Assembly (NCBI RefSeq): GCF_003595175.1
Contig: NZ_CP032419.1
Span: forward strand, 124,001-188,000
DNA from: Pseudomonas cavernae
GTDB taxonomy: Bacteria > Pseudomonadota > Gammaproteobacteria > Pseudomonadales > Pseudomonadaceae
Reading direction: 5' to 3'
Length of the DNA stretch: 64,000 nt
Positions within the stretch are counted from its first letter, which is position 1; every line of letters begins with the position of its first letter. A program made the translations under genes and the position numbers. Of this stretch, positions 9,461 through 26,258 are shown piece after piece. Below the pieces are notes generated by a model, which worked only from the letters and a program-made list of their open reading frames with translations, had not been told where the DNA came from and made no database searches.

Positions 9461-9543
9461 GCCGCGCGTCCACCTGTTCCCCGCACCGATCCGCCGGGCT
9501 TGCCGCTCCCGCCCATGGCTCGGCCACGCGCGGCAGCGGAGGA

Positions 9544-9614
9544 GGGGTTGGGCGCAGCGATAGCCCTGCGGCGCGGACGGATGGATATCGGCGCAACGCG
9601 CCTCAACCCAGCCT
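9544..9614. repeat. Degenerate GGGTTGAG-type inverted repeat
   Basis: GGGGTTGGGCGCAGCGAT on the left is answered by CGCCTCAACCCAGCC on the right. This is a weak member of the GTAGGATGGGTTGAG family seen elsewhere in the window. It adjoins the next repeat. Confidence 0.5.
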
Positions 9615-9615
9615 A

Positions 9616-9869
9616 AGAGCCTGTTTACGATCTGCTGCGCGTCGGCCATACGGCGTTAAAAATGGCCTCGGAAAGCAGCTTGCTGCTAACGCGCTTCAGC
9701 GCGACCCGGAGGGCGAGTGAAACGAGTTATGCTCATTTACAGCTCGTAAACTCCGCTCCCTCGGCCATTTGACTCGCTACGCTCGCCCTTCGGGCCAGCC
9801 TTCGGCTGTTACTCCCGTTGGTCGTTGCGCCTTGTCTGGCTCTAGCTCGCGAGATCGTAAACAGGCTCT
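9616..9869. repeat. Long palindromic repeat, copy 1 (254 nt)
   Basis: The ends are exact inverted repeats of each other (AGAGCCTGTTTACGATCT / AGATCGTAAACAGGCTCT). The inside contains further hairpin-forming pieces (GCTTGCTGCTAACGCGC, CTCGCTACGCTCGCCCTTCG). The full-length form recurs inverted at 37324-37578, and shorter forms occur at 22402, 49300 and 49443. It lies between the convergent 3' ends of the GAF-GGDEF-EAL gene and gcdG. It encodes nothing recognisable. Confidence 0.9.
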
Positions 9870-9874
9870 ACGCC

Positions 9875-11098
9875 CTACACCACCTTGGCCGCGCGCAGCG
9901 CGGCGATCCGTCCGGCGTCCAGGCCGAGCAGGCGCTGCAGCACCGCCTCGGTGTGTGCGCCGAGCAGCGGCGCGGCGTTGCGGTACTCCACCGGGGTAGC
10001 CGACAGGCGGATCGGGCTGGCCACCTGCGGCACCGTGCCGGCCAGCGGATGCGGCAGGTCCAGGCGCATGCCGCGCGCCTGCACCTGCGGGTCGGCGAAC
10101 ACCTGGGCGAGGTCGTTGATCGGCCCGCAGGGCACGCCGGCCTGTTCGAGCACGGCGATCCACTCGGCGGTGGTCTTGAATACCGTGGCCTGGCGGATTA
10201 ACGGGATCAGCACGGCGCGGTTGGCCACGCGCTGACTGTTGGTAGAAAAACGCGGGTCGTCTGCCCACTCCCGGAAGCCGGCGACCTCGCAAAACTTTCT
10301 GAACTGGCTGTCGTTGCCGACGGTGAGGATGAAATCCCCGTCGGCGGTGGGGAAATCCTGGTACGGCACGATGTTCGGATGGGCGTTGCCGAGCCGCCGC
10401 GGCGGCACGCCGGTGGTCAGGTAGTTCATCGCCTGGTTGCCGAGGCAGGCGATCTGCACGTCGAGCAGGGCCATGTCGATGTGTTGGCCGCTGCCGCCTT
10501 GGTCGCGGTGGGCCAGGGCGGCCAGCACCGCGACGGTGGAGTACAGGCCGGTGAGGATGTCGGTGAGGGCCACGCCAACCTTGACCGGACCGGCGCCCTC
10601 TTCGCTGTCGGCGCGGCCGGTGAGGCTCATCAGGCCGCCGAGCGCCTGGATCATGAAGTCGTAGCCGGCGCGCTTGGCGTAGGGGCCCTCCTGGCCGAAA
10701 CCGGTGATCGAGCAGTAGATCAGGCGCGGGTTGAGCGCCTTCAGCGACTCGTAGTCGAGACCGTAGGCGGCCAGGCCACCGGCCTTGAAGTTCTCCAGCA
10801 GCACGTCGGACTGGGCCGCCAGCTCGCGGATCAGGCGCTGCCCCTCGGGCTGGGTGAAGTCGACGGTGATCGACTGCTTATTGCGGTTGGCCGACAGGTA
10901 GTAGGCCGCCTCGCTGGTGTCGCGCCCCTCGGCATCCTTGAGGTAGGGCGGGCCCCAGCTGCGGGTGTCGTCGCCGACGCCGGGGCGTTCGACCTTGATC
11001 ACCTCGGCGCCGAGGTCGGCGAGGATCTGCCCGGCCCAGGGCCCGGCGAGGATGCGCGACAGATCGAGGACGCGGATATGCGAGAGGGCACCGGACAT
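9875..11098 (-). CDS. gcdG: CaiB/BaiF-family CoA-transferase, probable glutarate CoA-transferase
   Basis: Family III CoA-transferase. The N-terminus HIRVLDLSRILAGPWAGQ, GAEVIKVERPG.GDDTR, the VLLENFK segment and the GLDYE..NPRLIYCSITGFGQ block are typical; the catalytic Asp should be the one in AGYDFMIQ. I call glutarate:succinyl-CoA transfer because in Pseudomonas this subfamily partners glutaryl-CoA dehydrogenase. Here its promoter and operator copy those of gcdH 9 kb to the right. Start ATG at 11098, seven bases after GGAGC, gives 407 aa. A longer frame to 11239 would read through the promoter. It is transcribed alone on the minus strand and ends at a long palindromic repeat. Confidence 0.88.
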   Translation of the reverse strand: MSGALSHIRVLDLSRILAGPWAGQILADLGAEVIKVERPGVGDDTRSWGPPYLKDAEGRDTSEAAYYLSANRNKQSITVDFTQPEGQRLIRELAAQSDVLLENFKAGGLAAYGLDYESLKALNPRLIYCSITGFGQEGPYAKRAGYDFMIQALGGLMSLTGRADSEEGAGPVKVGVALTDILTGLYSTVAVLAALAHRDQGGSGQHIDMALLDVQIACLGNQAMNYLTTGVPPRRLGNAHPNIVPYQDFPTADGDFILTVGNDSQFRKFCEVAGFREWADDPRFSTNSQRVANRAVLIPLIRQATVFKTTAEWIAVLEQAGVPCGPINDLAQVFADPQVQARGMRLDLPHPLAGTVPQVASPIRLSATPVEYRNAAPLLGAHTEAVLQRLLGLDAGRIAALRAAKVV

Positions 11099-11174
11099 GT
11101 CATCTGCTCCAAGGAAGGACAGGGCCGGCAGACTCGCTGCAGCGCCCGTTGCGTGCAGGGGCACGCTTGCATTC

Positions 11175-11235
11175 ATCCTAGGGGTGTGGGGGCAACCCGG
11201 CAAACGAGGATTTTGCACGCAACTGTGCAGAATCC
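11175..11235 (-). promoter_or_regulatory. gcdG promoter with LysR-type operator
   Basis: On the minus strand: -35 TTGCCG (11198-11203), 17-base spacer, -10 TAGGAT (11175-11180). Just upstream is an interrupted dyad TGCAC-N6-GTGCA (11214-11229), a plausible LysR-type site. The same parts occur with identical spacing before gcdH, including the word GGCAAACGAGGATTT. Confidence 0.75.
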
Positions 11236-11300
11236 TCACTCCATGAGCGGCCGCAAGGCCATTGTGCTGGAGCTGCTGCGTTTCGCTGTGCGTAATGCGC

Positions 11301-11996
11301 CTATTCGGCGGGTGACTGGCGGGCCTGCAACAGCTCGCCGATGATGCGCACCGGGCCGAGCAGATGCGCGTGCATCAGGGCGCAGGCGCGTTCGCTGTCG
11401 CGGCGCAGAATCGCCTCGACCAGGGCCGCGTGCTCCTCGCGCTTGGCCTGCAGCGCCGCGGCGGAAAACACCGTCCGCTGCAACCACAGGTGGCGATAGC
11501 GTTCGGCCTGGTCGAACAGCGCCGTCCGTACCTGCAGCAAATGCTGCGAGCCACAACCGGCGGCAATGGCCGCGTGGAAGGCCTGATGGCGGGCATCCCA
11601 GAGACTGAGCATCTCTTCCGCATCCTTGACCTCGACCACCTTGGCCAGGCTGTGGGCCTGGGCGAGGATCTGCGCCTCCCAGGTATCGTCGCCACGGGCA
11701 ATCGCCAGGCCGAGGATCATCGCTTCCAGATGGGCGCGGGCATCGTAGATATCCGCCAGCTCGCCGAGTGACATCGGCGCCACGCGAAAACCGCGCTGAC
11801 TGATCGCCACCACCAGGCGCTCCGCCACCAGCTGCGACAAGGCCTCGCGCAGAGGGCCTACGCCCAGGTCGTAACGCGCCTTCAGCGCGCTCATCAGCAG
11901 CTTTTCGCCGGGCGCGAAGACGCCGCGAATGATGTCGCGCTTGAGCAGTTCGTAACCGCGAATCGCCAGATTCTCTCGGGAGCCGGGGGCTTGCAT
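11301..11996 (-). CDS. csiR: GntR-family (FCD) repressor, CsiR-like
   Basis: GntR winged helix at the N-terminus (RGYELLKRDIIRGVFAPGEK, LREALSQLVAERLV). A C-terminal all-helical FCD ligand domain follows, with the metal-site pattern DARAHLEAMI, HQAFHAAI and a late H. It is divergent from csiD. In Enterobacteria and Pseudomonas CsiR is the repressor of the csiD operon and responds to glutarate, which fits. Start ATG at 11996, shortly after AAGGATGG, gives 231 aa. A longer frame to 12095 would overlap the csiD promoter. Probably autoregulated through the shared intergenic region. Confidence 0.88.
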   Translation of the reverse strand: MQAPGSRENLAIRGYELLKRDIIRGVFAPGEKLLMSALKARYDLGVGPLREALSQLVAERLVVAISQRGFRVAPMSLGELADIYDARAHLEAMILGLAIARGDDTWEAQILAQAHSLAKVVEVKDAEEMLSLWDARHQAFHAAIAAGCGSQHLLQVRTALFDQAERYRHLWLQRTVFSAAALQAKREEHAALVEAILRRDSERACALMHAHLLGPVRIIGELLQARQSPAE

Positions 11997-12088
11997 CACA
12001 CCATCCTTGCACGGGTTCGCGCCCATCATACCGAATCGCTTGAGGCCAGTTTGGGCGAGCAGGGAGGTGCACAGGGCGTGGTTTATTT

Positions 12089-12137
12089 TTGACACATTTA
12101 TAAAATGTCGATATTTTCAATATACGTCGACAATAGT
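12089..12137 (+). promoter_or_regulatory. csiD promoter and probable CsiR operator
   Basis: TTGACA at 12089-12094, a 17-base spacer, and TATTTT at 12112-12117 form a good sigma-70 promoter aimed at csiD. Overlapping it is an imperfect dyad, TGTCGATATT facing AATATACGTCGACA (about 12106-12132). This is where a repressor such as CsiR would block RNA polymerase. The AT-rich patch contrasts with the surrounding coding DNA. Confidence 0.65.
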
Positions 12138-12192
12138 TCGACCCCACAGATTGCCTCCCTAGCACTCGCCTCCCTGCCTCTGGAGTATCACC

Positions 12193-13170
12193 ATGAGTAC
12201 AGTTGTTGCCCTGAAGAGCCTGGCCGTCCCCGCCCCGCAGAGCCTCAGCGGCTTTACCCTGCGACCCAGCGCGCAATCGCCGCGCCTGCTGCAGCTGACC
12301 TTCAGCCAGGCCACCGTGCAGGGCTTTCTCGCGGCCCTCGCTGAGTGGCCGGTCCAGGCGCTGGAATACAAGTCATTCCTGCGCTTCCGGCTGGCCAAGA
12401 TTCTCGATGAGCTGTGTGCGGGCAGCCTGCAACCGCTGCTGATCAATACCCTGCTGGACCGCGCCACCGGCGGCCTGCTGGTCAGCGCCGAAGGCCTCGA
12501 CCAGGTCGCCCAGGCCGATGACATGGTCAAGCTGGCCACCGCCGTCGCCCACCTGTTCGGCCGCTCCAACTTCGACGCCATGAGCGGCCAGTACTACGCG
12601 CGCTTCGTGGTGCAGAACGTCGATGCCTCCGACAGTTACCTGCGCCAGCCGCACCGGGTGCTGGAGCTGCACACCGATGGCACCTTCGTCGAGCAGGACA
12701 CCGACTACGTGCTGATGATGAAAATCGACGAACAGAACATGGAGGGCGGCGACTCGCTGCTGCTGCACCTCGATGACTGGGAAGGCCTGGCCACTTTCAA
12801 CCACCACCCGCTGGCCCGCCGCGAGCTGCGCTGGACCGCGCCACCGAGCAAGCGGGTGGACAAGGACGTGTTCCACCCGGTGTTCGACAACGACGCCGAA
12901 GGTCGGCCGATCATCAGTTACATCGATCAGTTCGTGCAGCCGAAGAACTTCGAGGAAGGCAACTGGCTGACCGACCTCAGCCAGTCGCTGGAAGGCAGCC
13001 CGCACAAGCTGTCGGTTCCGGTGCCGGTGGGCAGCTTTCTGCTGATCAACAACCACTTCTGGCTGCATGGCCGCGACCGCTTCACCGCGCACCCGGGCCT
13101 GCGCCGCGAACTGATGCGCCAGCGCGGCTACTTCACCTACGCCAAGGTGCTGCGCGAGCCGCGCCAGTGA
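12193..13170 (+). CDS. glaH: Glutarate 2-hydroxylase (CsiD/GlaH)
   Basis: Fe(II)/2-oxoglutarate-dependent dioxygenase of the CsiD family, which hydroxylates glutarate to L-2-hydroxyglutarate. Seen: the iron ligands H-x-D in [11 protein letters not shown], a distal HGRDRF segment, and the 2-oxoglutarate-binding Arg region PGLRREL. Also seen are strongly CsiD-like stretches [11 protein letters not shown] and [19 protein letters not shown]. 325 aa matches the family. It is the first gene of a plus-strand operon with lhgO 92 bases downstream. The upstream promoter and operator, and the divergent csiR, indicate glutarate-induced expression. Confidence 0.93.
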
Positions 13171-13262
13171 AGCCATGGCCGCCCGCGCTGCGCCCGGCGC
13201 GGGACGGCGCCGCAGCGTCACAGACCTTCAGCACACGACTCCCAGAACCCACAGGTGATCCG

Positions 13263-14501
13263 GTGTACGACTTCATCATTATCGGCGGCGGCATTCTTGG
13301 CATGTCCACCGCCATGCAGCTGCTGCGCACCTATCCCGCCAGCCGCATGCTGTTGCTGGAAAAAGAATCGGCCCCGGCCCGGCACCAGACCGGCCACAAC
13401 AGCGGGGTGATCCACGCCGGCGTGTACTACACCCCGGGCAGCCTCAAGGCCAGGTTCTGCCTGGCCGGCAACGCGGCGACCAAGGCCTTCTGCGAGCAGC
13501 ACGGGATCGCCTATCAGGTGCCCGGCAAGCTGCTGGTCGCCACCAACCCACTGGAAATGCAGCGCATGCAGGCGCTGTGGGAGCGCACGGCGGCTAACGG
13601 CATCCAGCGCGAATGGCTGAATGCCGGTCAGCTGCGTGAGCGCGAGCCGAACATTCGCGGCAGCGGCGCCATCCTGGTGCCGTCCAGCGGCATCGTCAAT
13701 TACGCCGAGGTCACCGCGGCCATGGCCGGCGAGTTCATCCGGGCCGGCGGCGAAATCCGCTACGGTGCCAGCGTCACCGCCCTGCACGAGAGCGCCCAGG
13801 AAATCCGCGTGCAGAGCAGTGCCGGCGATTTCGCCTGCCGCTTCCTGATCACCTGCGCCGGCCTGCACTCCGACCGTCTGGTGCGCATGCTCGGCCTACA
13901 GCCGGGCTTCAGCATCTGCCCGTTCCGCGGTGAATACTTCCAGCTGCCGGCGCAGCACGACCGCATCGTCAACCACCTGATCTACCCGATTCCCGATCCG
14001 AGCATGCCGTTCCTCGGCGTGCACCTGACGCGGATGATCGACGGCAGCGTGACGGTCGGGCCGAATGCGGTGCTGGCCCTCAAGCGCGAGGGCTACCGCA
14101 AGCGCGACATCTCCCTCGGCGACAGCTGGGCGATGCTGACCAACCCCGGCATCCTCAAGGTGCTCAAGGCCAACCTGCGCCCGGGCCTGGGCGAAATGAA
14201 GAACTCGCTGTTCAAGCGCGGCTACCTGCAACAGGTGCGCAAATACTGCCCGAGCATCCAGCTTGGCGACCTCAAGCCCTATCCGGCCGGGGTGCGCGCC
14301 CAGGCCGTGTCGGACGACGGTCGGCTGATCGACGATTTCCTGTTCCGCCACAGCCGACGCAGCCTGCATGTCTGCAACGCACCCTCGCCGGCCGCCACCT
14401 CGGCGCTGCCGATCGGCGCCCATATTGTCGACCAGCTCAGTAGCCAGTTGCTGAGCCTGCCGAGCTTCGCCAAGCCCCAATCCACCCGTCCCGCCGCCTG
14501 A
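13263..14501 (+). CDS. lhgO: L-2-hydroxyglutarate oxidase (LhgO)
   Basis: FAD-dependent oxidase/dehydrogenase that converts L-2-hydroxyglutarate, the product of CsiD, to 2-oxoglutarate and feeds electrons to the respiratory chain. The N-terminal dinucleotide motif IIIGGGILGMSTA is followed by ARHQTGHNSGVIHAGVYY, a signature of the LhgO branch of the DAO fold. LITCAGLHSDR and the C-terminal GVRAQAV complete the family pattern. The start is a GTG at 13263 (VYDFIIIGGG) preceded by AGGTGA; an in-frame ATG at 13167 would add 32 unlikely residues. 412 aa. The third operon gene begins nine bases after the stop. Confidence 0.92.
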   Translation: MYDFIIIGGGILGMSTAMQLLRTYPASRMLLLEKESAPARHQTGHNSGVIHAGVYYTPGSLKARFCLAGNAATKAFCEQHGIAYQVPGKLLVATNPLEMQRMQALWERTAANGIQREWLNAGQLREREPNIRGSGAILVPSSGIVNYAEVTAAMAGEFIRAGGEIRYGASVTALHESAQEIRVQSSAGDFACRFLITCAGLHSDRLVRMLGLQPGFSICPFRGEYFQLPAQHDRIVNHLIYPIPDPSMPFLGVHLTRMIDGSVTVGPNAVLALKREGYRKRDISLGDSWAMLTNPGILKVLKANLRPGLGEMKNSLFKRGYLQQVRKYCPSIQLGDLKPYPAGVRAQAVSDDGRLIDDFLFRHSRRSLHVCNAPSPAATSALPIGAHIVDQLSSQLLSLPSFAKPQSTRPAA

Positions 14502-14510
14502 GAGCCACCC

Positions 14511-15878
14511 ATGCACAGCACCAGCCTGGCCGACAAAGACCGCCAGTACCATCTGCACCCCTACACCAACGCCCGCCTGCATGAGCAGGTCGGCCCGCTG
14601 CTGATCGAGCGCGGCGAAGGCGTCTATGTCTATGACCAGCAGGGCAAGGAATACCTGGAGGCCATGTCCGGCCTGTGGAGCGCCGCCCTCGGCTTCAGCA
14701 ACCAGCGCCTGATCGCCGCCGCCGAGCGGCAGCTGCGCACTCTGCCCTTCTACCACGTGTTCGGCCACAAGGCGCACCGGCCGGCCATCGAGCTGGCCGA
14801 GAAGCTGATCGCGATGGCGCCGGTGCCGATGAGCAAGGTGTTCTTCACCAACTCCGGCTCGGAAGCCAACGACACGGTGGTCAAGCTGGTCTGGTACTAC
14901 AACAATGCCCGCGGCAAACCGGCGAAGAAGAAGTTCATCAGCCGGCACAACGCCTACCACGGCATCACCGTGGCCAGCGCCAGCCTCACCGGCCTGCCGG
15001 CCAACCAGCGCGGCTTCGACGTGCCGCTGCCGGGCTTCCTGCATGTCGGCTGCCCGCATCACTACCGCCACGCCCTGCCCGGGGAAAGCGAGGAGCAGTT
15101 CGCCGACCGCCTGGCCGCCGAGCTGGAGCAGCGCATCCTCAGCGAGGGCGCCGAGACCATCGCCGCCTTTATCGGCGAGCCGCTGATGGGCGCCGGCGGC
15201 GTGATCGTGCCGCCGCGCACTTACTGGCAGAAGATCCAGGCGGTGTGCCGGCGTCACGACATCCTGGTGATCGCCGACGAAGTGATCTGCGGCTTCGGCC
15301 GCACCGGGCAGCTGTTTGGCAGCCAGACCTTCGCCATCCAGCCGGACGTGATGGTGCTGTCCAAGCAGCTGTCCTCGTCCTACCAGCCGATCGCCGCGCT
15401 GCTGATCAACGACGCGCTGTACCAGGGCATCGCCGAGCAGAGCCACAGCTTCGGCACCTTCGGCCACGGCTTTACTGGCAGCGCCCACCCGGTGGCCACC
15501 GCCGTGGCCCTGGAAAACCTCAAGATCATCGAGGACGAGCAGCTGGTGCCGCACGCCGCGGCCATGGGCGAACGCCTGCTCGCCGGTCTGCGCGGGTTCG
15601 CCGATCACCCGCTGGTGGGCGAAGTGCGTGGCTGCGGGCTGATTGCCGCGGTGGAGCTGGTCGGCGACCGGCAGAGCAAGGCGCCGCACGGCAGCCTGGG
15701 CAATCTCGGCCGCTACCTGGCCGGCCGCGCCCAGGAACACGGCATGATCACCCGCGCCATGGGCGATGCCATCGCCTTCTGCCCGCCGCTGATCAGCAAC
15801 GAAGCGCAGATCGACTTGCTCATCGAGCGCTTCGCCCGCGCCCTCGACGACACCAGTCGCTGGGCGTGCACCGGCTGA
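14511..15878 (+). CDS. Class III aminotransferase (omega-amino acid or diamine type)
   Basis: PLP-dependent fold-type I aminotransferase. Seen: FFTNSGSEANDTVVKL (cofactor phosphate), HNAYHG, IADEVICGFGRTG (Asp to the pyridine nitrogen) and the Schiff-base Lys in VLSKQLSSSYQP. 455 aa. It follows lhgO by nine bases, so it is the third gene of the csiD operon, the place where enterobacterial loci carry gabD/gabT. However, the sequence resembles putrescine/beta-alanine:pyruvate-type enzymes more than GabT. A likely job is removing the terminal amino group of 5-aminovalerate or a cadaverine derivative on the way to glutarate; the substrate is inference. The operon ends at the terminator at 15896. 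Confidence 0.85.
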   Translation: MHSTSLADKDRQYHLHPYTNARLHEQVGPLLIERGEGVYVYDQQGKEYLEAMSGLWSAALGFSNQRLIAAAERQLRTLPFYHVFGHKAHRPAIELAEKLIAMAPVPMSKVFFTNSGSEANDTVVKLVWYYNNARGKPAKKKFISRHNAYHGITVASASLTGLPANQRGFDVPLPGFLHVGCPHHYRHALPGESEEQFADRLAAELEQRILSEGAETIAAFIGEPLMGAGGVIVPPRTYWQKIQAVCRRHDILVIADEVICGFGRTGQLFGSQTFAIQPDVMVLSKQLSSSYQPIAALLINDALYQGIAEQSHSFGTFGHGFTGSAHPVATAVALENLKIIEDEQLVPHAAAMGERLLAGLRGFADHPLVGEVRGCGLIAAVELVGDRQSKAPHGSLGNLGRYLAGRAQEHGMITRAMGDAIAFCPPLISNEAQIDLLIERFARALDDTSRWACTG

Positions 15879-15895
15879 AACGCCGGCCGTCCGCC

Positions 15896-15935
15896 AGCAA
15901 TGCAAAGGCCCGCCGAAGCGGGCCTTTGCATTGCT
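15896..15935. terminator. Bidirectional terminator between convergent genes
   Basis: Perfect 18-bp stem AGCAATGCAAAGGCCCGC (15896-15913) and its complement (15918-15935), with a CGAA loop. It lies between the aminotransferase (plus) and the amidotransferase (minus) and would stop transcription from both sides, although the T-tracts are weak. Confidence 0.85.
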
Positions 15936-15951
15936 CCTGCGCCAACTCTTG

Positions 15952-16677
15952 CTAGCTGCTGTGCGCCTGGCCCTGGGCCACGAAACGCAGCATCCACTCG
16001 GCCACGATCTGCCCCTGGTGCGCCTGTTCCAGGCTGTCGATGGCTTGCCGATAGACCTGCTCGCCCCAGTGTTCCCGGCGAATCTCGAGGATCGAGCGGG
16101 AGTAGTCCGCCACTAGTTCCGGATGCCCCTGCCAGCACAGCACCTGGTCGCCAATGCGATAGGCGGCGATCGGGCAGAATGCGTTGGCGGCCAGGATGGT
16201 GGCGTTGGCCGGCGCCTGGGTGACCTGGTCCTGGTGGATGATCAGCATGGACAGCTGCTCGGCGCCTGGCTGCATCCAGGCCTCCTGCTCGACCACCGCA
16301 TACTGCTGCACGCCGACGCCCCAGCCCTGCCGGGCCCGCTCGGTCTTGCCGCCCAGCAGCAGGGCCAGCAACTGGTGGCCGAAGCAGATGCCGAGCAGCT
16401 TGTCGCCGGCGGCATAGCGCGCCAGCACGTACTCGCGCAGGGTCTGGATCCACGGCTCCACGCCGAAGGAGTCGTACTTGCTGCCGGTGATCAGGTAGGC
16501 GTCGTAACGCTGCGCGTCGTCCGGATACTGCCCCTGGACCACATTGAACACCTCGAACTCGGCGGCGATCGGCTGCTGCGCGAACAGCTGCTTAAACATT
16601 CGGCCATAGCCGTGATACTGCTCGACCAGCTCGGGACGAATGTGATCGGTTTCGAGGATGCAGATGCGCAATGCCAT
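15952..16677 (-). CDS. Class I glutamine amidotransferase, PauD/gamma-glutamyl hydrolase-like
   Basis: GMP-synthase-like class I amidotransferase domain standing alone. Seen: nucleophile Cys in LLGICFGHQLLA, the oxyanion strand LITGSKYDSF, and the catalytic His-Glu in CWQGHPE. In Pseudomonas, stand-alone proteins of this type hydrolyse gamma-glutamylated omega-amino acids during polyamine breakdown (PauD, PuuD function). The adjacent spuC and gamma-glutamylpolyamine synthetase support that reading. Start ATG at 16677, eight bases after AGGAG; a TTG lies one codon upstream. 241 aa. It is probably last in a minus-strand operon of synthetase, spuC and this gene, with gaps of 48 and 117 bases. 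Confidence 0.82.
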   Translation of the reverse strand: MALRICILETDHIRPELVEQYHGYGRMFKQLFAQQPIAAEFEVFNVVQGQYPDDAQRYDAYLITGSKYDSFGVEPWIQTLREYVLARYAAGDKLLGICFGHQLLALLLGGKTERARQGWGVGVQQYAVVEQEAWMQPGAEQLSMLIIHQDQVTQAPANATILAANAFCPIAAYRIGDQVLCWQGHPELVADYSRSILEIRREHWGEQVYRQAIDSLEQAHQGQIVAEWMLRFVAQGQAHSS

Positions 16678-16794
16678 CAAGGGACTCCTGACTCATGGAG
16701 TGAAACAACAGGGGATTCAGCGCGGCCGGCGCGGCGCCACGGCCACAGGTGACGCTCGCGCCGCGGCAGGTCGCCACGGCGCGAACGCGCGGAT

Positions 16795-18162
16795 TCAGCC
16801 CTGCAGATCCTGCAGGGTCAGGTCCAGGCACCGCCGCGCCTTGCTCACCAGCTCGTCGATCTCGGCTTTGCTGATCACCAGCGGCGGCGCGATGATCATG
16901 GTGTCGCCGACGGCGCGCATGATTAGGCCGTTATTGAAGCAGTGGCCGCGGCAGAGCATGCCCACGCCCTTGCCCGCATAACGCTCGCGGGTGGTCTTGT
17001 CCTTGACCAGCTCGATGGCGCCGAGCATGCCCAGGCCGCGCACCTCGCCGACCAGCGGGTGGTCGAGCAGTTCGCGCAGGCGCTGCTGCAGGTAGGGGGC
17101 GGTTTCTGCGCGCACCCGCTCGAGGATCTTCTCCTCGCGCAGGATGCGGATGTTTTCCAGCGCCACCGCCGCCGCCACCGGGTGCCCGGAGTAGGTGAAG
17201 CCGTGGTTGAAATCCCCGCCTTGCTTCAGCACCTCGGCCACCTTGTCGCCGACGATCAGCCCGCCCATGGGGATGTAGCCAGAGGTCAGGCCCTTGGCGA
17301 TGGTCATCAGGTCCGGCGTGTTGCCGTAGTAGTCGCTGCCGAACCACTCGCCGGTGCGACCGAAACCGCAGATCACTTCATCGGCCACGAACAGGATGTC
17401 GTACTTGGCGAGGATCTCGCGGATCTTCGGCCAGTAGCTGTCCGGCGGCACGATCACGCCGCCGGCGCCCTGGATAGGTTCGGCGATAAAGGCGGCGACC
17501 TTGTCCACGCCGACTTCGAGGATCTTCTTCTCCAGCTGCTCGGCGGCCCAGATGCCGAACTCGTCGGCGGGCATGTCGCCGCCTTCGCCGAACCAGTAAG
17601 GCTGCGGGATGTGCACGATGTCCGGGATCATCCCGCCCTGCTCGTGCATGCCCTGCATGCCGCCGAGGCTGGCGCCGGCCACGGTGGAGCCGTGGTAGCC
17701 ATTGTGGCGGCCGATGATCACCTTCTTGCTCGGCTGGCCCTTGAGCGCCCAGTAGTGGCGGACCATGCGCAGCATGGTGTCGTTGCCTTCCGAGCCGGAG
17801 CCGGTGAAGAACACATGGTTCATGCTTGGCGGGGCGATCTCGGCGATGACCTTGGCCAGCTCCAGCACCGGCGGGTGCGCGGTCATGAAGAAGGTGTTGT
17901 AGAACGGCAGCTCTTTCATCTGCCGGCTGGCGGCGTCGGCCAGCTCATCACGACCGTAGCCGATCGCGGCGCACCACAGGCCGGCCATGCCGTCGAGGAT
18001 CTTGTGGCCTTCGCTGTCCCACAGGTACACGCCATCGCCCTTGACGATGATGCGCGGGCCGCTGTCGCTCAGCTGCTGGTAATCGCTGAACGGCGCGAGG
18101 TGATGGTCACGGCTCATGGCCTGCCACTGCAGGGTTTGCGGGTTGTTGTAGGTAGTGCTCAT
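16795..18162 (-). CDS. spuC: Polyamine:pyruvate aminotransferase (SpuC-like)
   Basis: Class III PLP aminotransferase closely resembling Pseudomonas SpuC, which transaminates putrescine, cadaverine or their gamma-glutamyl derivatives with pyruvate. Seen: SRDHHLAPF near the N-terminus, FFTGSGSEGNDTMLRMVRHY, GRHNGYHGSTVAG, FVADEVICGFGRTGEW, and the PLP Lys in TIAKGLTSGYIPMG. 455 aa, the family length. GGAGG lies four bases before the ATG at 18162. It sits between the gamma-glutamylpolyamine synthetase and the amidotransferase, a standard polyamine catabolic order. This is the second class III aminotransferase in this cluster. Confidence 0.9.
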   Translation of the reverse strand: MSTTYNNPQTLQWQAMSRDHHLAPFSDYQQLSDSGPRIIVKGDGVYLWDSEGHKILDGMAGLWCAAIGYGRDELADAASRQMKELPFYNTFFMTAHPPVLELAKVIAEIAPPSMNHVFFTGSGSEGNDTMLRMVRHYWALKGQPSKKVIIGRHNGYHGSTVAGASLGGMQGMHEQGGMIPDIVHIPQPYWFGEGGDMPADEFGIWAAEQLEKKILEVGVDKVAAFIAEPIQGAGGVIVPPDSYWPKIREILAKYDILFVADEVICGFGRTGEWFGSDYYGNTPDLMTIAKGLTSGYIPMGGLIVGDKVAEVLKQGGDFNHGFTYSGHPVAAAVALENIRILREEKILERVRAETAPYLQQRLRELLDHPLVGEVRGLGMLGAIELVKDKTTRERYAGKGVGMLCRGHCFNNGLIMRAVGDTMIIAPPLVISKAEIDELVSKARRCLDLTLQDLQG

Positions 18163-18210
18163 AGCGCCTCCAATGAGTGGCAGCGCAGCGACCGCGAGGC
18201 CGCTGCCCGA

Positions 18211-19602
18211 TTAGCTTCTGGCCAGCAGATGCTTGATGGCGAAATCCGCGTCGGCGGCCTGTTCACTTAATTCATGCTGTTTGATCAGCGTGTACAGCTC
18301 GATAAACGGCGCACCGAGGGTTTCCGCCATGATCGGGCAGCCTTGCAGGTCCGCCAGCGCCTCGCCCAGGTTCAGCGGCAGCGCGCCGCGCGCGGACTGG
18401 GCCGGGCGGTCGCTGACTTCCGGTCCCGGCTCGATCTCCTGCCGCATCCCGGCCAGGCCGGCGCCGAGCATCAGCGCCAGGCTCAGGTAGGGGTTGGCAT
18501 CGCCGCCCGGCAGGCGGTGTTCGACGCGGCGGTTGGCCGGGTCGGAGTGCGGCACGCGGAAGGCCGCGGTGCGGTTGTCGTAGCCCCACTCGACGCTGGC
18601 CGGCGAGGCATCCGGGCGCTGCAGGCGCACATAGGAGTGGGCATAGGGCGCGAGAATCGCCATCGACGCGCGCGCCGACGCCTGCCAGCCGCCGATGAAG
18701 TGCCTGAGCCGCATGTGCGGCGCGCCATCGGCCGCGCTGAAGGGGTTGCTGCCCGTGGCATCGGCGAGGCTGATATGCCAGTGCAGCCCGGTGCCCGGTT
18801 CGTGCCGATAGGGCTTGGCCATGAAGGTGGCGAGGCAACCGTGGCGGCGGGCGATCTCGCGGGCCAGGCGCTTGAAGCGGAACACCGCATCGGCCTGGGC
18901 CAGCGGCTCGCCGGGGGCGAGGTTGACCTCGTACTGGCCCAGGGCCGACTCATGGCCGTAGCCGGTGATCGGGATGCCCTGGATTTCACAGGCGGCCCAC
19001 AGCTCATCGAAGAACGGCGCGAAGGTGCTCGCGGTTTCCGCGGAAGCCAGGTCGTGGGAGCTTTCGATATGTGGCACGCAGCCGGACATGCCATGGGCTA
19101 CCTGCAAGCCGCCATCGGCCAGGCGCTGCGGATGCACCAGGAAGAACTCCAGCTCGGGGGCGACCCTGGCCGTGTAGCCGGCGGCCTGCAGCCGGGCCAG
19201 CGTGCGCTTGAGCAGCTGGCGCGGCGACAGCTCGGCGACCTCGTACTGGCAATGGCCATCGGCCGCAGTGAAGCTCGCCTGCAGGTCGCAGATGAGGGTG
19301 GCCGTGGGCACCGTGGCCAGCGGGTCACGCACCAGCGTGCGCCAGTCCGGGCGCATGGCCATGTCCGGGAAGGTCGGCGGGAACACCCGCTGGAACACCT
19401 GGGGCGGCTCGCCGCCGGTGACCGTCAGGCCGAGAAACAGCGAGGGCATTTTCGCCCCCAGGGTCTCGGCGAAGCTGGCGCGGCTGAGGATCTTGCCGCG
19501 CGCCACGCTGGTCAGGTCGGCGAAGACCAGCTCGACCCGGTGGATATCGTTGGCCTGCAGCCAGGCCAGGGCCTCGCTGGCGGTGGAAAGCTCAGGGTGC
19601 AT
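18211..19602 (-). CDS. Gamma-glutamylpolyamine synthetase (glutamine synthetase family)
   Basis: Glutamine synthetase fold used to ligate glutamate to a polyamine (PauA/SpuI/PuuA function). Seen: ELEFFLVHP (metal Glu), GYGHESALGQYEVNLAPGEP (Glu-rich metal site typical of the PuuA branch), ATFMAKPY, GTGLHWHISL (ATP/metal His), and the NRTAAFRVP and EHRLPGGDANPYL ends. 463 aa. The small N-terminal beta-grasp domain is present. It is first in the minus-strand polyamine operon, upstream of spuC. Start ATG at 19602 with GAGG about 11 bases upstream. The exact polyamine is not readable; cadaverine would connect best to the glutarate genes on either side. Confidence 0.88.
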   Translation of the reverse strand: MHPELSTASEALAWLQANDIHRVELVFADLTSVARGKILSRASFAETLGAKMPSLFLGLTVTGGEPPQVFQRVFPPTFPDMAMRPDWRTLVRDPLATVPTATLICDLQASFTAADGHCQYEVAELSPRQLLKRTLARLQAAGYTARVAPELEFFLVHPQRLADGGLQVAHGMSGCVPHIESSHDLASAETASTFAPFFDELWAACEIQGIPITGYGHESALGQYEVNLAPGEPLAQADAVFRFKRLAREIARRHGCLATFMAKPYRHEPGTGLHWHISLADATGSNPFSAADGAPHMRLRHFIGGWQASARASMAILAPYAHSYVRLQRPDASPASVEWGYDNRTAAFRVPHSDPANRRVEHRLPGGDANPYLSLALMLGAGLAGMRQEIEPGPEVSDRPAQSARGALPLNLGEALADLQGCPIMAETLGAPFIELYTLIKQHELSEQAADADFAIKHLLARS

Positions 19603-19624
19603 GAAAGAAAAACCTCGAGATCTA

Positions 19625-19646
19625 GGCGCAGCCCGCAGGCTGCGCC
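19625..19646. terminator. Hairpin downstream of the CoA-transferase fragment
   Basis: 9-bp stem GGCGCAGCC / GGCTGCGCC with a 4-base loop, just after the fragment's stop on the minus strand and before the synthetase start. No T-tract follows, so it may be a rho-dependent or vestigial terminator. Confidence 0.5.
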
Positions 19647-19681
19647 GCGTGGATGTCTAACCGTTTGCCCGGCGCCTGCCG

Positions 19682-20008
19682 TCAGCCATCGGCCTGGCGC
19701 GGGGCGAGCCCGACACAGGGCACGCCGGCCCAGCGCAGGGCGGCCACCCACTCTTCGGTGCGGTGCGCCACCGTGTGCCGGCGCAGCAGGGCGGTCAATT
19801 CGTGCCGGTGCTGATACCGCGCGCGCCGGCTGGCAAAGCGCGGGTCCGCCGTCCACTGCTGCTGGCCGGCCAGCGCGCTCAGCTCGGCAAACTGGTAGTC
19901 ATTGCTCACCGCGAGAAAGAACGCCCCGTCGGCACTCGGAAAGATATGGCAGGGCGCCGGGTCTGGTGCGCTGCCGGCCACGGCGCGCATGAGAGCCTTG
20001 GGTATCAT
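19682..20008 (-). pseudogene. C-terminal fragment of a CaiB-family CoA-transferase
   Basis: About 108 residues align with the middle to C-terminal part of family III CoA-transferases: HIFPSADGAFFLAVSNDYQF, QQWTADPRFASR and WVAALRWAGVPC. They correspond to FPTADGDFILTVGNDSQF, WADDPRFSTN and WIAVLEQAGVPC in the intact gcdG of this window. The N-terminal two thirds, including the catalytic Asp region, are missing, and the frame ends early after VPC. It lies directly downstream of gcdH, where gcdG stands in related genomes. It is similar to but clearly diverged from the intact gcdG, so it is a decayed paralog rather than a recent copy. Confidence 0.8.
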
Positions 20009-20070
20009 CGTCCTCCCCCAGTCGAAGTCTGAATGCAGAGTGTCCGGCCAGCCCCGCGGGGCAGAAACTA

Positions 20071-20103
20071 CAACGGGCGGGCAGCCTGGCTACCCGCCCG
20101 TTG
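20071..20103 (-). terminator. gcdH terminator
   Basis: 11-bp arms CAACGGGCGGG (20071-20081) and CCCGCCCGTTG (20093-20103) around an 11-base loop that itself can pair. It sits 14 bases after the gcdH stop on the minus strand. The T-tract is weak. Confidence 0.7.
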
Positions 20104-20116
20104 CTGGTGGCGCAAG

Positions 20117-21298
20117 TCAGTAGAACGCCTGGATGCCGGTCTGCGCGCGGCCGAGGATCAGCGCGTGGACGTCGTGGGTGCCCTCGTAGGTGTTGACCAC
20201 CTCGAGGTTGACCAGATGGCGGGCCACGCCGAATTCGTCGCTGATGCCGTTACCGCCCAGCATGTCGCGGGCCAGGCGGGCGATGTCGAGGGACTTGCCG
20301 CAGCTGTTGCGCTTCATGATCGAGGTGATTTCCACCGCGGCGGTGCCCTCGTCCTTCATCCGCCCGAGGCGCAGGCAGCCCTGCAGGGCCAGGGTGATCT
20401 CGGTCTGCATGTCGGCGAGCTTCTTCTGGATCAGTTGGTTGGCGGCCAGCGGGCGGCCGAACTGCTTGCGGTCGAGGCAGTACTGACGCGCGGTGTGCCA
20501 GCAGAACTCGGCGGCGCCCAGTGCGCCCCAGCTGATGCCGTAGCGCGCGGAGTTGAGGCAGGTGAACGGGCCTTTCAGACCGCGCACGTCGGGGAAGGCG
20601 TTCTCTTCCGGGCAGAACACGTTGTCCATGACGATCTCGCCGGTGATCGACGCGCGCAGGCCGACCTTGCCGTGGATCACCGGGGCGGAGAGGCCTTGCC
20701 AGCCCTTCTCGAGCACGAAGCCGCGGATCTCGCCGGCATCGTCCTTGGCCCAGACCACGAACACGTCGGCGATCGGGCTGTTGGTGATCCACATCTTGCT
20801 GCCGGACAGGCGATAGCCGCCGTCGACCTTCTTCGCCCGGCAGATCATCGAGCCCGGGTCGGAGCCGTGGTTCGGCTCGGTCAGGCCGAAGCAGCCGATC
20901 CACTCGCCGGACGCCAGCTTGGGCAGGTACTTCTGTTTGGTCGCTTGGTTGCCGAATTCGAAGATCGGCACCATCACCAGGGACGACTGCACGCTCATCA
21001 TCGAGCGGTAGCCGGAATCGATGCGCTCGACTTCGCGGGCGATCAGGCCGTAGCACACGTAGTTGAGGCCGCTGCCGCCATACTCGGCGGGAATGGTGGC
21101 GCCGAGCAGGCCAAGTTCGCCCATCTCGCGGAAGATCGCCGGGTCGGTCTGTTCGTGGCGGAAGGCCTCGAGCACGCGCGGGGCCAACTTGTCCTGGGCG
21201 TACTGCTGGGCGCTGTCGCGCACCATGCGCTCTTCCGCGCTCAGTTGCTGATCGAGCAGCAGGGGGTCTTCCCAGTTAAAGCTTGCTTTGCCGGCCAT
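20117..21298 (-). CDS. gcdH: Glutaryl-CoA dehydrogenase
   Basis: Acyl-CoA dehydrogenase-fold flavoenzyme that oxidises and decarboxylates glutaryl-CoA to crotonyl-CoA, passing electrons to ETF. Seen: [39 protein letters not shown] (FAD/substrate region), [15 protein letters not shown], the GFVLEKG...G..AP loop, and the catalytic Glu in [16 protein letters not shown]. 393 aa, full length. Start ATG at 21298 with GAGGA eight bases upstream. It is divergent from gcdR, and the gap between the two genes carries a promoter and operator matching those of gcdG. The gene immediately downstream is only a CoA-transferase fragment, so the intact transferase is supplied from 9875-11098. Confidence 0.95.
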
Positions 21299-21330
21299 GT
21301 CGAAATCCTCGGGAGTGAATCAAAAGGAAC

Positions 21331-21361
21331 GTAGGTTGGGCCGAGTCCAGCGCAGCCCAAC
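21331..21361. repeat. Single arm of a GTAGGTTGGG-type repeat
   Basis: GTAGGTTGGGCCGAG followed by CGCAGCCCAAC is half of the inverted repeat family found near many genes here. It lies in the gcdH leader region, upstream of the start codon. Confidence 0.5.
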
Positions 21362-21373
21362 AGCGGTGTATTG

Positions 21374-21430
21374 ATCCTAGGCCCGCACGGCGGTGCGGGC
21401 AAACGAGGATTTCGCACGCTATTGTGCTGA
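21374..21430 (-). promoter_or_regulatory. gcdH promoter with LysR-type operator
   Basis: Minus strand: -35 TTGCCC (21397-21402), 17-base spacer, -10 TAGGAT (21374-21379). Upstream dyad CGCAC-N6-GTGCT (21413-21428). Each element lines up with the gcdG promoter at the same spacing. It lies between divergent gcdH and gcdR, as expected for a LysR-type activator. Confidence 0.78.
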
Positions 21431-21493
21431 TTACGCACTTCGAGATAGGTTTAATCGGCATTTATCTCCATTCAGAGTGAAGGTAGCGCATAG

Positions 21494-22402
21494 ATGCGTC
21501 GCAAGATCCCCAACACCGCGGCCCTGGTGGCCTTCGAGTCGGCCGCCCGCCACCAGAGCTTCACCCGCGCCGCCGAGGAGCTGGCCCTGACCCAGAGCGC
21601 CATCTGCCGGCAGATCGCCGGGCTCGAGGCGTTTCTCGGCATCGCCCTGTTCCGCCGCTCGCGCCGCGGGGTGAAGCTGACCGAGGCCGGCCTGGCTTAC
21701 AGCCGCAAGGTCGCCGCGCAGCTGGATGCGGTGGAGCGCGACACCCTGGCACTGATGGGCCAGCAGGGCGCGATGAGCATCGAGCTGGCGGTGGTGCCGA
21801 CCTTCGCCACCCAGTGGCTGCTGCCGCGGCTCAAGGAATTCCAGCGCCTGCACCCGGAAGTCACGGTCAATCTGAACAACCGCACCCGGCCGTTCCTGTT
21901 CGCCGACACCGAGTTCGATGCGGCGATCTACTTCGGCGACGCCGACTGGTCCGGCACCGAGTCGCACTTCCTGATGCGCGAGAATTCGCAGCCGGTGTGC
22001 AGCCCGGTCCTGCTCGACGGCCGCAGCAGCCTCGACGCCAGCGCCCTGGCCAGCCTGCCGCTGCTGCAGCAGAGCACCCGTCCCTATGCCTGGCGGCAGT
22101 GGTTCAACTCGCTGGGCCTGAACGTCGCCCAGGACATGAGCGGACCGCGCTACGAGCTGTTCTCCATGCTCGCCCAGGCGGCCATGCACGAGATGGGCGT
22201 GGCGCTGATCCCGCCGTTCCTGATCGAGCGCGAGCTGGCCGAGGGCCGTTTGGTGGTGGCCATGGAACACAGCTGCGTCAGCGAGCGTGCCTATTACCTG
22301 ATGATTCCCGAGCGCAAGGTCGAGTCCGCGGCCCTGCGCGCCTTCCGCGACTGGCTGCTACCGACCGCCCTGCAATACCGCACGGCGGTCGGGTTGGCCT
22401 AA
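21494..22402 (+). CDS. gcdR: LysR-family regulator of glutarate genes
   Basis: LysR-type transcriptional regulator, GcvA-like branch. The N-terminal helix-turn-helix is at about residues 10-68 (LVAFESAARHQSFTRAAEEL, QSAICRQIAGLE, LFRRSRRGVKLTEAG), followed by a periplasmic-binding-like effector domain. 302 aa. It is divergent from gcdH with the dyad between them. In Pseudomonas the gene in this position is GcdR, an activator responding to glutarate or a related compound. The shared operator before gcdG suggests that it controls both genes. The ATG at 21494 follows AAGGT. The gene ends at palindromic repeat copy 2. Confidence 0.9.
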   Translation: MRRKIPNTAALVAFESAARHQSFTRAAEELALTQSAICRQIAGLEAFLGIALFRRSRRGVKLTEAGLAYSRKVAAQLDAVERDTLALMGQQGAMSIELAVVPTFATQWLLPRLKEFQRLHPEVTVNLNNRTRPFLFADTEFDAAIYFGDADWSGTESHFLMRENSQPVCSPVLLDGRSSLDASALASLPLLQQSTRPYAWRQWFNSLGLNVAQDMSGPRYELFSMLAQAAMHEMGVALIPPFLIERELAEGRLVVAMEHSCVSERAYYLMIPERKVESAALRAFRDWLLPTALQYRTAVGLA

Positions 22403-22543
22403 GAACCTGTCTACGATCTGCTGCGCGTCGGTCAAACTGCGTTGAGAACGGCTTCGGAATGCTCATTTACAGCTCGTAAACTCCGCTTCCTCAGCCGTTT
22501 TCGCCTTGTTTGACTCTAGCTCGCGAGATCGTAAACAGGCTCT
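22402..22543. repeat. Long palindromic repeat, copy 2 (short form, 142 nt)
   Basis: The ends AGAACCTGTCTACGATCT and AGATCGTAAACAGGCTCT are near-complementary. It has the same outer parts as the 254-nt form but lacks the inner ~110 bases. The first base overlaps the TAA stop of gcdR. The rest of the gap up to 22792 shows no gene. Confidence 0.9.
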
Positions 22544-22792
22544 AAGCCATCCGGGCGCGACATGACCGGGCGTCAGCTGCCCTGCAACTTTTGCGGTTGC
22601 AGTCCACACTCTATGCAGGCCCTAAGCCACCCACGGCGGCCACCACCCGGAGTACGAGCACCACCAACACCGTTAGCCTGAGTCTCTATGACGTTCTGGC
22701 AACGAGCCCAGCCAGCATTTCCGACCGTGACTTCGTTGCCCTCAGCTGCGGCGTGTACTTCTGAACACGAAACAGCACAGGTCTCGAACAGC

Positions 22793-24160
22793 ATGAAACA
22801 CTCACGCATCCTGCATAGCGGCGTTCTCGCGTTGTCCCTGCTGGCCAGCAGTGTGATGGCCGCTGTCTCCCCTGAAGAAGCTGCGCAACTCGGCACCAGC
22901 CTCACCCCCCTCGGGGGCGAGAAAGCCGGCAATGCCGACGGCAGCATCCCGGCCTGGGACGGCGGCCTGCCGACCAATGCGGCGCCGGTCAGCAACGGCT
23001 TCCTCGGCGACCCCTTCGCCAGTGAGCAGCCGCTGTTCACCATCACCGCCGCCAATGCCGAGCAGTACAAGGACAAGCTCTCCCCCGGGCAGATGGCGAT
23101 GTTCAAGCGCTACGCCAGCACCTACAAGATCCCGGTGTTCAAGACCCACCGCTCGGTCGCGGTGCCGCAGGCGATCTACGACATCGCCAAACGCAGCGCG
23201 GTGCAAACCCAGGAACTCGACGACGGTAACGGCCTGAGCAATTTCGCCGACACCCACTACTACGCCTTCCCGATCCCGAAGAATGGCGTCCAGATCGTGT
23301 GGAACCACATCACCCGCTACCGCGGTGGCAACAACAGACGCCATATCGCCCAGGCCATGCCGCAGGTCAACGGCTCCTTCACCCCGGTGAAATTCGACGA
23401 CGAGGTCGCCTTCCCCACCGACATGACCGATCTGGAAAAGGAGAAAGGCGCCAACATCCTGCTCTACTTCAAGCAGCGGGTCACCTCGCCGGCGCGTCTG
23501 GCCGGTAACGTGCTGCTGGTCCACGAGACCCTCGACCAGGTAAAGGAACCGCGCATGGCCTGGCTCTACAACGCCGGCCAGCGTCGTGTGCGGCGCGCTC
23601 CGCAGGTGGCCTACGACGGTCCCGGCACCGCTGCCGACGGCCTGCGCACCTCGGACAACTTCGACCTGTTCAACGGCGCGCCGGACCGCTACGACTGGAA
23701 GCTGGTGGGCAAGAAGGAGATGTACATCCCCTATAACAGCTACCGCCTGGACTCGACCAAGCTGAAGTACGCCGACATCCTCAAGCCCGGGCATATCAAC
23801 CAGGATCTGGCGCGCTATGAACTGCACCGCGTGTGGCAGGTGGTGGCGACCCTGAAGGCCGGTGAGCGGCATATCTACGCCAAGCGCGACCTGTACTTCG
23901 ACGAGGATGGCTGGCAAGCCGCCTATGCCGACCACTACGACGGCCGCGGCCAGCTCTGGCGGGTCGGTGAGGGCCACGCCGAGCAGCACTACCAGCAGCA
24001 GGTCCCGATCTACGCGATGGAAGCGCTGTACGACCTGATCGCCGGGCGTTACATCGTGCTGGGCATGCGCAACGAGGAGAAAAGCGGCACCCAGTACGGC
24101 TTCAAGGCCAGCGCCGCCGACTTCACCCCGGCCGCCCTGCGCAACGAGGGCGTGCGCTGA
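22793..24160 (+). CDS. Exported DUF1329 protein
   Basis: Member of DUF1329, periplasmic proteins of uncharacterised function that are common in Pseudomonas and often sit beside DUF1302 porin-like or RND genes. Here it stands alone. I use the ATG at 22793, which begins a clear signal peptide (MKHSRILHSGVLALSLLASS, cleavage after about VMA); the longer frame to 22688 would bury it. 455 aa. The mature N-terminus AAQLGTSLTPLGGEKAGNAD followed by IPAWDGG is the standard DUF1329 opening. The C-terminal half has the YDWKLVGKKEMYIPYNSYR block. The fold is beta-rich, probably lipocalin- or LolB-like by family knowledge. A 12-bp inverted repeat follows the stop. Confidence 0.88.
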   Translation: MKHSRILHSGVLALSLLASSVMAAVSPEEAAQLGTSLTPLGGEKAGNADGSIPAWDGGLPTNAAPVSNGFLGDPFASEQPLFTITAANAEQYKDKLSPGQMAMFKRYASTYKIPVFKTHRSVAVPQAIYDIAKRSAVQTQELDDGNGLSNFADTHYYAFPIPKNGVQIVWNHITRYRGGNNRRHIAQAMPQVNGSFTPVKFDDEVAFPTDMTDLEKEKGANILLYFKQRVTSPARLAGNVLLVHETLDQVKEPRMAWLYNAGQRRVRRAPQVAYDGPGTAADGLRTSDNFDLFNGAPDRYDWKLVGKKEMYIPYNSYRLDSTKLKYADILKPGHINQDLARYELHRVWQVVATLKAGERHIYAKRDLYFDEDGWQAAYADHYDGRGQLWRVGEGHAEQHYQQQVPIYAMEALYDLIAGRYIVLGMRNEEKSGTQYGFKASAADFTPAALRNEGVR

Positions 24161-24171
24161 GGCAACCGCAG

Positions 24172-24205
24172 CCGCTCAACGCCCCGTAGGTGAGGCGTTG
24201 AGCGG
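24172..24205 (+). terminator. Hairpin after the DUF1329 gene
   Basis: Perfect 12-bp arms CCGCTCAACGCC and GGCGTTGAGCGG with a 10-base loop, 12 bases after the stop. No T-tract follows. Confidence 0.55.
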
Positions 24206-25925: not shown

Positions 25926-25936
25926 GGAGCCAGACA

Positions 25937-26257: not shown

Positions 26258-26258
26258 C

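Follow-up and report, generated by a model that had tools for sequence, protein, structure and literature searches.

The DNA analyzed here is a 64,000-nt window of Pseudomonas cavernae (NZ_CP032419.1, positions 124,001-188,000), and coordinates are given within this window. We investigated a block at 9875-22402 in which csi genes, gcd genes and an amine module lie together. An earlier note on this DNA had placed csiR/csiD-lhgO-aminotransferase, a gamma-glutamylpolyamine synthetase/spuC/amidotransferase set and gcdG/gcdH/gcdR in one block, and open reading frames (ORFs) and family scans found all of these there, confirming by gene content that an amine module is joined here to both exits for glutarate. 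Some details required correction. Although gcdG belongs to the block, it lies at the opposite end, 9 kb from gcdH; the name gamma-glutamylpolyamine synthetase was a family-level guess for a glutamine synthetase (GS)-like gene that reaches no equivalog cut-off; and the gene list had missed a gene at 19682-20008 (minus strand) and a second gcd-type promoter at 11195-11244 (minus strand). The features of the block are as follows:

9875-11098, minus strand: gcdG (gcoT), succinate/glutarate CoA-transferase of the CaiB family, displaced 9 kb from gcdH
11195-11244, minus strand: predicted second copy of the gcdH promoter with a GcdR-type box, before the displaced gcdG; matrix score 46.5
11301 to about 11996, minus strand: csiR, GntR/FCD repressor; the frame is open to 12095, and the start at 11996 is placed from the family model
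12089-12117, plus strand: csiD promoter-like element, TTGACA-17-TATTTT, a sequence match only
12193-13170, plus strand: csiD (glaH), glutarate 2-hydroxylase; 508.6 bits, cut-off 333
13167-14501, plus strand: lhgO, L-2-hydroxyglutarate dehydrogenase; 593.2 bits, cut-off 299; family match from residue 34 of the frame
14511-15878, plus strand: AT1, class-III omega-amino-acid aminotransferase, PjAT-like; proposed 5-aminovalerate transaminase
15952-16680, minus strand: class-I glutamine amidotransferase (PRK05665), an extra copy; proposed gamma-glutamyl-amide hydrolase
16795-18162, minus strand: spuC-type polyamine:pyruvate aminotransferase, second paralogue
18211-19602, minus strand: GS-like ligase of an apparently divergent branch; proposed gamma-glutamyl-diamine synthetase
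19682-20008, minus strand: mini-CaiB, a stand-alone CaiB small-domain protein of 108 amino acids
20070-20104, minus strand: GC-rich strong hairpin directly 3' of gcdH, terminator- or processing-like
20117-21298, minus strand: gcdH, glutaryl-CoA dehydrogenase; 89-96% identity to gcdH of the genus
21394-21443, minus strand: native gcdH promoter with a predicted GcdR-type box; matrix score 73.0
21494-22402, plus strand: gcdR, LysR-type, by its place a glutarate-responsive activator, divergent from gcdH

Genes were named from the ORF listing and from family scans against NCBIfam curated cut-offs. These cut-offs were reached by CsiD, LhgO and CsiR (356.5 bits vs. 218 for CsiR), so that all three members of the glutarate hydroxylation set are covered, and by the amidotransferase and both aminotransferase subfamilies. 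GcdR barely reached its subfamily cut-off (288 vs. 288), GcdG scored 536 bits against the succinate-glutarate CoA-transferase model NF052585, below its cut-off of 750, and GcdH passed no equivalog cut-off. GcdH and GcdG were therefore named by identity and gene position; GcdG was 77-86% identical to the gcdH-adjacent gene of other genus genomes, and its name rests on orthology with that gene.

We compared the distance between gcdH and gcdG across the genus. The two genes were 9,021 bp apart in the window genome, compared with 14-170 bp in 136 of the 137 tabulated genomes (those with listed rows for both genes at ≥77% identity), and the canonical gcdHG adjacency was not found in the window genome. 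As lower bounds, gcdH matches were present in at least 143 and gcdG matches in at least 138 of 149 genus genomes. Long open frames at gcdG or gcdH of a few relatives were considered as fusions or insertions and rejected, since they cross unavailable stretches of sequence, which also account for at least part of the missing or short matches. In P. putida, gcdH is transcribed together with gcoT (gcdG), and gcdR is likewise divergent from gcdH (PMC6667623), indicating that the csi and amine genes here sit inside a normally single operon. The block shares with the gcdR-gcdH-gcoT operon of Pseudomonas the same three genes, the divergent gcdR, and the strand and order of gcdH and gcdG, but here gcdG lies 9 kb off behind its own copy of the gcdH promoter, with other genes between. 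Judged by gene order, the block is an ordinary gcdR|gcdH-gcdG operon into which two cassettes, one amine and one csi, have been set between gcdH and gcdG.

The csiD gene was sporadic, occurring in 16 of 149 genus genomes and in 25 of 148 genomes of a family sample, in agreement with a published account (PMC5974017). In the tables of the 149 genus genomes, csiD lay within 20 kb of gcdH on one contig in the window genome alone, and the other 15 csiD-bearing genomes had a gcdH-gcdG gap of at most 162 bp. These results support the view of the earlier note that the modules are usually at separate loci, and the synteny comparison showed that the order is not universal in the genus. Three of the 149 genomes (G233, G272 and G281) had two gcdH matches each at E 1e-150 or better.

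Of 244 named csiD loci, the best 80 were examined for relatives of the block. Three of them, L003 (Pseudomonas sp. R-28-1W-6), L019 (Pseudomonas sp. 8AS) and L006 (Pseudomonas sp. MMS21 TM103), show the complete order gcdG-csiR|csiD-lhgO-AT1|amidotransferase-spuC-GS-gcdH|gcdR. Because it recurs in three other Pseudomonas, the order of the block is beyond chance. L005, judged by length and content to be on the same contig as L108 (genome G379), carries the block without AT1 and the amidotransferase, and the contig of L004 ends inside the block. The GS gene of the block was present in 3 of 398 genus genomes, namely its own, G379 and G421. The locus of G421, L106, has the order gcdR|gcdH-GS-spuC-gcdG, without the csi genes, the small-domain gene and the amidotransferase. 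By its gene order, L106 may be an intermediate, in which the amine pair entered first and the csi unit came later, or a form reduced by loss. At 16769-19429 of L071 (P. akapageensis), a 91% gcdH copy adjoins an AT1-like gene near csiD in a different arrangement, with no gcdG or gcdR match within that locus, and in L011 (P. xionganensis) spuC, a different GS and a FAD oxidase lie near csiR. These two arrangements indicate that amine, csi and gcd genes were joined more than once. Frames of about 110 codons follow spuC and face it in L108 (4602-4928) and on the opposite strand of L106 (about 13,650-14,000); they are alike by eye and are not in the order of the window.

To score gcd-type promoters, we used a matrix of 50 columns built only from the gcdR-gcdH gaps of six block-free genomes. 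The matrix scored 73.0 at the native gcdH promoter and 46.5 at 11195-11244 before gcdG; the next-best site in the 64-kb window scored -1.6, and 20 single-base shuffles of the window reached at most 10.7. A GcdR-type promoter is thus predicted upstream of both gcdH and gcdG, and both copies in the window are followed by CCTAGGAT. The copy before gcdG was also found in L003, L006, L019, L108, L004 and L106 with scores of 33.9-53.0 (L108 and L004 are near-identical at this site), and no second site above 7.5 was found in any of the six block-free loci, which are the same loci that gave the matrix. These results indicate that the gcdH promoter, with its predicted GcdR-type box, is duplicated in front of the displaced gcdG. 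Through the copied promoter, gcdG should remain responsive to GcdR and glutarate despite leaving the operon, and the regulation of the split operon was thereby probably preserved.

Other control signals were also examined. A CsiR-type sequence, ATGTN5TTTT, was found at 12105-12117 within the csiD promoter-like stretch (sequence match only); PcsiD of P. putida is TAGACA-17-TATTTT (PMC6667623), and the CsiR site of E. coli is ATGTN5TTTT (PMC6265302). A promoter/terminator scan gave no more hits than shuffles (1 vs. a mean of 1.2 promoter-like; 6 vs. 6.4), and its listing did not contain the hairpin after gcdH. The 75 bases 3' of gcdH fold at -45.1 kcal/mol, a raw value without shuffle control, and similar hairpins follow gcdH in L003, L006, L019 and L108, but L106 has none of this form. 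A crude search of nine short regions found no shared (PauR-type) palindrome in the GS promoter, davD and spu regions, which is not evidence of absence.

Between gcdH and the GS gene, in the usual place of gcdG, lies mini-CaiB, a frame of 108 codons at 20008-19682 (minus strand). It was 43% identical to GcdG residues 234-324 (E 9e-25). In MCT, the small domain spans residues 231-319 and is joined to a split large domain (PMC9196870), so a match confined to residues 234-324 of GcdG indicates that mini-CaiB holds only the small domain. Mini-CaiB thus aligns close to the MCT-bounded small domain of class III CoA-transferases (CaiB/BaiF), but unlike these enzymes it stands alone, without a large domain or catalytic aspartate. 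In YfdE, the active-site Asp173 and the GNxH-loop His233 come from different subunits (PMC3720670); this loop is not conserved across the mini-CaiB family.

The mini-CaiB gene was present in L003, L005/L108, L006 and L019 and absent from L106. Ten pairwise comparisons among five genomes, covering the first 80 core codons, gave a dN/dS of 0.13-0.33 and a pN/pS of 0.21-0.39, with third-position changes dominating, so that by these ratios the gene is under purifying selection. The family comprised 17 proteins of 106-124 amino acids, including that of the window, with 43 invariant columns; its four named members came from three Pseudomonas and one Pseudomonadales bacterium. In a tree of 90 columns, the members grouped with Pseudomonas GcdG and not with three outside rows, on a long stem (1.08). 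The structure model was weak (mean pLDDT 64.6, residues 1-34 below 50), and although 41 of 43 Foldseek matches were class III CoA-transferases, none reached E 0.001 (best 0.15), so the model is no more than consistent with the sequence result. Mini-CaiB most likely began as a gcdG duplicate and now has a non-catalytic role, which we propose to be that of a partner or regulator. A more specific version, a functional but catalytically dead stand-alone small domain derived from a gcdG duplicate, partnering or regulating GcdG or the GS-like ligase and travelling with a laterally spreading amine-to-glutarate cassette that duplicated the GcdR promoter on splitting the operon, is tentative and rather doubtful as a whole. 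No description of a stand-alone CaiB small-domain protein was found in the excerpts of the literature.

In the csi cassette, AT1 was closest to the 6g4b group (E 1.9e-255), which we take to be PjAT of P. jessenii. A relative of AT1 (≥77%) lay downstream of lhgO in 21 of 28 Pseudomonadaceae loci, one of the 28 being cut by a sequence end, and in three of the 21 it was more than 1 kb away. As in P. putida KT2440, csiR is divergent from csiD-lhgO, and as in the P. jessenii caprolactam cluster, where PjAT lies beside lhgO, csiD and csiR, an omega-aminotransferase follows lhgO (PMC6061476). Unlike the clusters of P. putida KT2440, P. jessenii and E. coli (csiD-lhgO-gabDTP), the csi cassette here has no following dehydrogenase gene and is set inside a gcd operon. 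AT1, the CoA-transferase and the acyl-CoA dehydrogenase were also considered as caprolactam/adipate genes and rejected, the block having no caprolactamase or further beta-oxidation gene. Separately, L107 (G178) carries a 57% GcdG paralogue at 3650-4864, about 13.5 kb from csiD at 18377, a placement reminiscent of the CoA-transferase close to csiD in the caprolactam/adipate region of P. jessenii (PMC6061476).

In the amine module, the GS-like protein scored 170.6 bits against the gamma-glutamylputrescine synthetase model NF045547, below its cut-off of 650, and two other GS-like proteins of the genome scored only 222-225 bits. Relatives of this ligase at 40-42% identity numbered three besides its own gene in 369 class genomes, and in two of these three genomes SpuC-like genes (58-59% to that of the block) and PuuD-like genes, called by residue reading, lie alongside. 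The SpuC of the block was recognized by PRK07480 (802 bits, cut-off 510) and has a close relative of solved structure, 9j4z (E 5.1e-258). Its identity was 85-95% among block genomes, 84-92% to the csiR-near SpuC of L011 and 80-84% to the canonical spuC of the window genome, indicating that it is a second paralogue. The amidotransferase likewise has a paralogue elsewhere in the genome (69% identity). Since the window genome also carries a canonical spu-like locus with two GS-like ligases and spuC (L084 4979-10213; 210,978-216,212 of the genome), the block is an additional set.

A GS-like ligase, SpuC and an amidotransferase also occur together in the P. putida spu2 cluster and among the P. aeruginosa spu/pau genes. 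The block differs from these in that its GS-like ligase appears to form a separate divergent branch, its amidotransferase is of the PF00117 type, and the set is linked to glutarate genes, with a canonical spu-like locus present besides. In P. putida U, spuC2, which may be the same paralogue as the SpuC of the block, is induced by cadaverine and 5-aminovalerate and not by putrescine (PMC10606097), and P. aeruginosa converts cadaverine to 5-aminovalerate by gamma-glutamylation (PMC7901475). From gene context, we infer that cadaverine is the substrate of the GS-like ligase.

In the route that we propose, the GS-like ligase would glutamylate a C5 diamine (cadaverine), whose free end would be converted to an acid by the SpuC paralogue together with a dehydrogenase encoded outside the block, and the amidotransferase would release 5-aminovalerate. 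AT1 would then make glutarate semialdehyde, and a gabD/davD-type dehydrogenase from elsewhere would make glutarate. Glutarate would leave either through CsiD-LhgO to 2-oxoglutarate, with CsiR derepressed, or through GcdG-GcdH to crotonyl-CoA, gcdG presumably being kept glutarate-responsive by the copied promoter. A link to C5 metabolism is also suggested by L011, where a spuC of the same group lies near csiR with another GS and a FAD oxidase. The block is not the self-contained route or island described in the earlier note, because the route requires two aldehyde oxidations and all 26 Aldedh matches of the genome fall outside the block, and because no PauB-type oxidase, transporter or decarboxylase was found among its genes. 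A gabT/gabD (davT/davD)-like pair is encoded some 20 kb upstream; PuuC-like genes that stay below the cut-off of their family occur elsewhere in the genome. The PauR regulon of P. aeruginosa includes davD-davT (PMC7901475), so coupling to the distant dehydrogenase genes may, by analogy, be by regulation rather than position.

We assessed the spread of the block with a gcdG tree of five block-bearing and six block-free loci and a gcdH tree of the same numbers plus the L071 copy; L005/L108 and L004 were left out, since their gcdH or gcdG is cut by contig ends. A single block-bearing clade was rejected by the approximately unbiased (AU) test (p = 0.00048 for gcdH and 1.8e-6 for gcdG), with many forks weak; the test was run after a smaller tree already showed scatter, and the group was defined by block presence. 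In the 7 kb beyond gcdG, the block-bearing L019 shares 4,965 aligned bases with the block-free L096, and the block-bearing L006 shares about 2,950-2,970 bases with the block-free L094 and L097, while L003 and L019 share none. Beyond gcdR, where the window alone represented the block, it shares 4,715 bases with the block-free L095 and 1,506-3,130 with four of the other five. These comparisons indicate that the block sits at one site in differing surroundings. No mobile-element-like genes were found among the block genes, and none of 174 plasmid records matching parts of 9000-23500 covers 80% of this region. Because both trees reject one block clade, lateral spread is likely, and homologous recombination in the gcd flanks is the probable means by which the block passes from one Pseudomonas species to another.

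Taken as a whole, we lean towards reading the block as a split gcdHG operon with a cadaverine-to-glutarate cassette, both glutarate exits, a promoter copy and recombination in the gcd flanks. Several observations weigh against this. Identity of the GS-like protein to nine of the ten other GS-like proteins of the genome is only 31-38%, and it falls outside these nine, on a separate starred branch, in a tree that has several long branches and cannot be rooted safely (the comparison rests on the nine; the glnA row, read in a wrong frame, was not used). The block lacks the two dehydrogenases, an importer and a source of diamine, and the set is not obligatory, as L106 lacks the amidotransferase and L005/L108 lack both it and AT1; L106 may also be reduced rather than intermediate. 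The hairpin that follows gcdH suggests something other than simple transcription of the amine genes from PgcdH, and no promoter or regulator was found for them. Finally, the left flank of the window matches none of the nine compared, and the base composition of the block is the same as that of its surroundings, with no sign of recent foreign origin.

Other explanations were weighed against the same evidence. Given the closeness of AT1 to the 6g4b group, presumably PjAT, the csi-AT1 part could be left over from a 6-aminohexanoate (caprolactam) pathway like that of P. jessenii and not belong to a C5 amine route. However, no caprolactamase or adipate beta-oxidation gene was found among the block genes, and the lhgO-AT1 pair is common (the 21 of 28 loci above), so that even with PjAT beside lhgO, csiD and csiR in the caprolactam cluster (PMC6061476) we regard this as very improbable. 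The GS/spuC/amidotransferase set might instead act on putrescine, spermidine or some other amine and lie in the gcd operon only incidentally. This is compatible with a GS-like protein that reaches no equivalog cut-off, with the ten other GS-like matches in the genome, and with the ability of P. aeruginosa SpuC enzymes to accept several diamines (PMC10606097). It appears unlikely, since GS and spuC lie between gcdH and gcdG even without csi genes (L106), and L011, from a different lineage, has a related spuC close to csiR.

The history of the block can also be read differently. It may be ancestral and have been lost many times: a patchy distribution needs no transfer, only five block-bearing genomes were placed in the gcdH and gcdG trees, and the base composition is not foreign. 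However, every loss would have to delete some 9 kb, promoter copy included, and re-establish the short gcdH-gcdG gap, and the block-free genomes that match the outer flank of L019 differ from those that match the outer flank of L006. Repeated loss is thus a rival of some standing but the weaker one, and recombination in the gcd flanks is likely the simplest route of spread. The 108-codon frame, in turn, could be a decaying gcdG fragment without function, as it occupies the normal place of gcdG without a catalytic large domain, is strongly diverged (the stem of 1.08) and is absent from L106. Decay is distinctly unlikely for a frame that is open in five genomes at pairwise dS of up to 1.37, with the low dN/dS and the 43 invariant columns among 17 members given above.

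To the left of the block lie two cyclic-di-GMP proteins, MHYT-GGDEF-EAL (3946-6177, minus strand) and GAF-GGDEF-EAL (7010-9460, plus strand). After gcdR, a DUF1329 protein, the pntA/pntB transhydrogenase and a succinyl-CoA:acetate CoA-transferase are encoded at 22688-29488; several genus relatives likewise have pntAB after gcdR, in some cases with DUF1329 intervening.

Among the matches listed from open-licence PMC literature, no description of this gene arrangement was found. The enzymes and pathways are known; what appears to be new is the gene order, together with the promoter copy and the stand-alone domain gene. The small-domain protein is the oddest part of the block, and if it works, it would be a new kind of CoA-transferase derivative. 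The block seems to catch cluster assembly at several stages, and its union of an amine module with the two glutarate exits is relevant to the catabolism of lysine and cadaverine and to strains for glutarate production.

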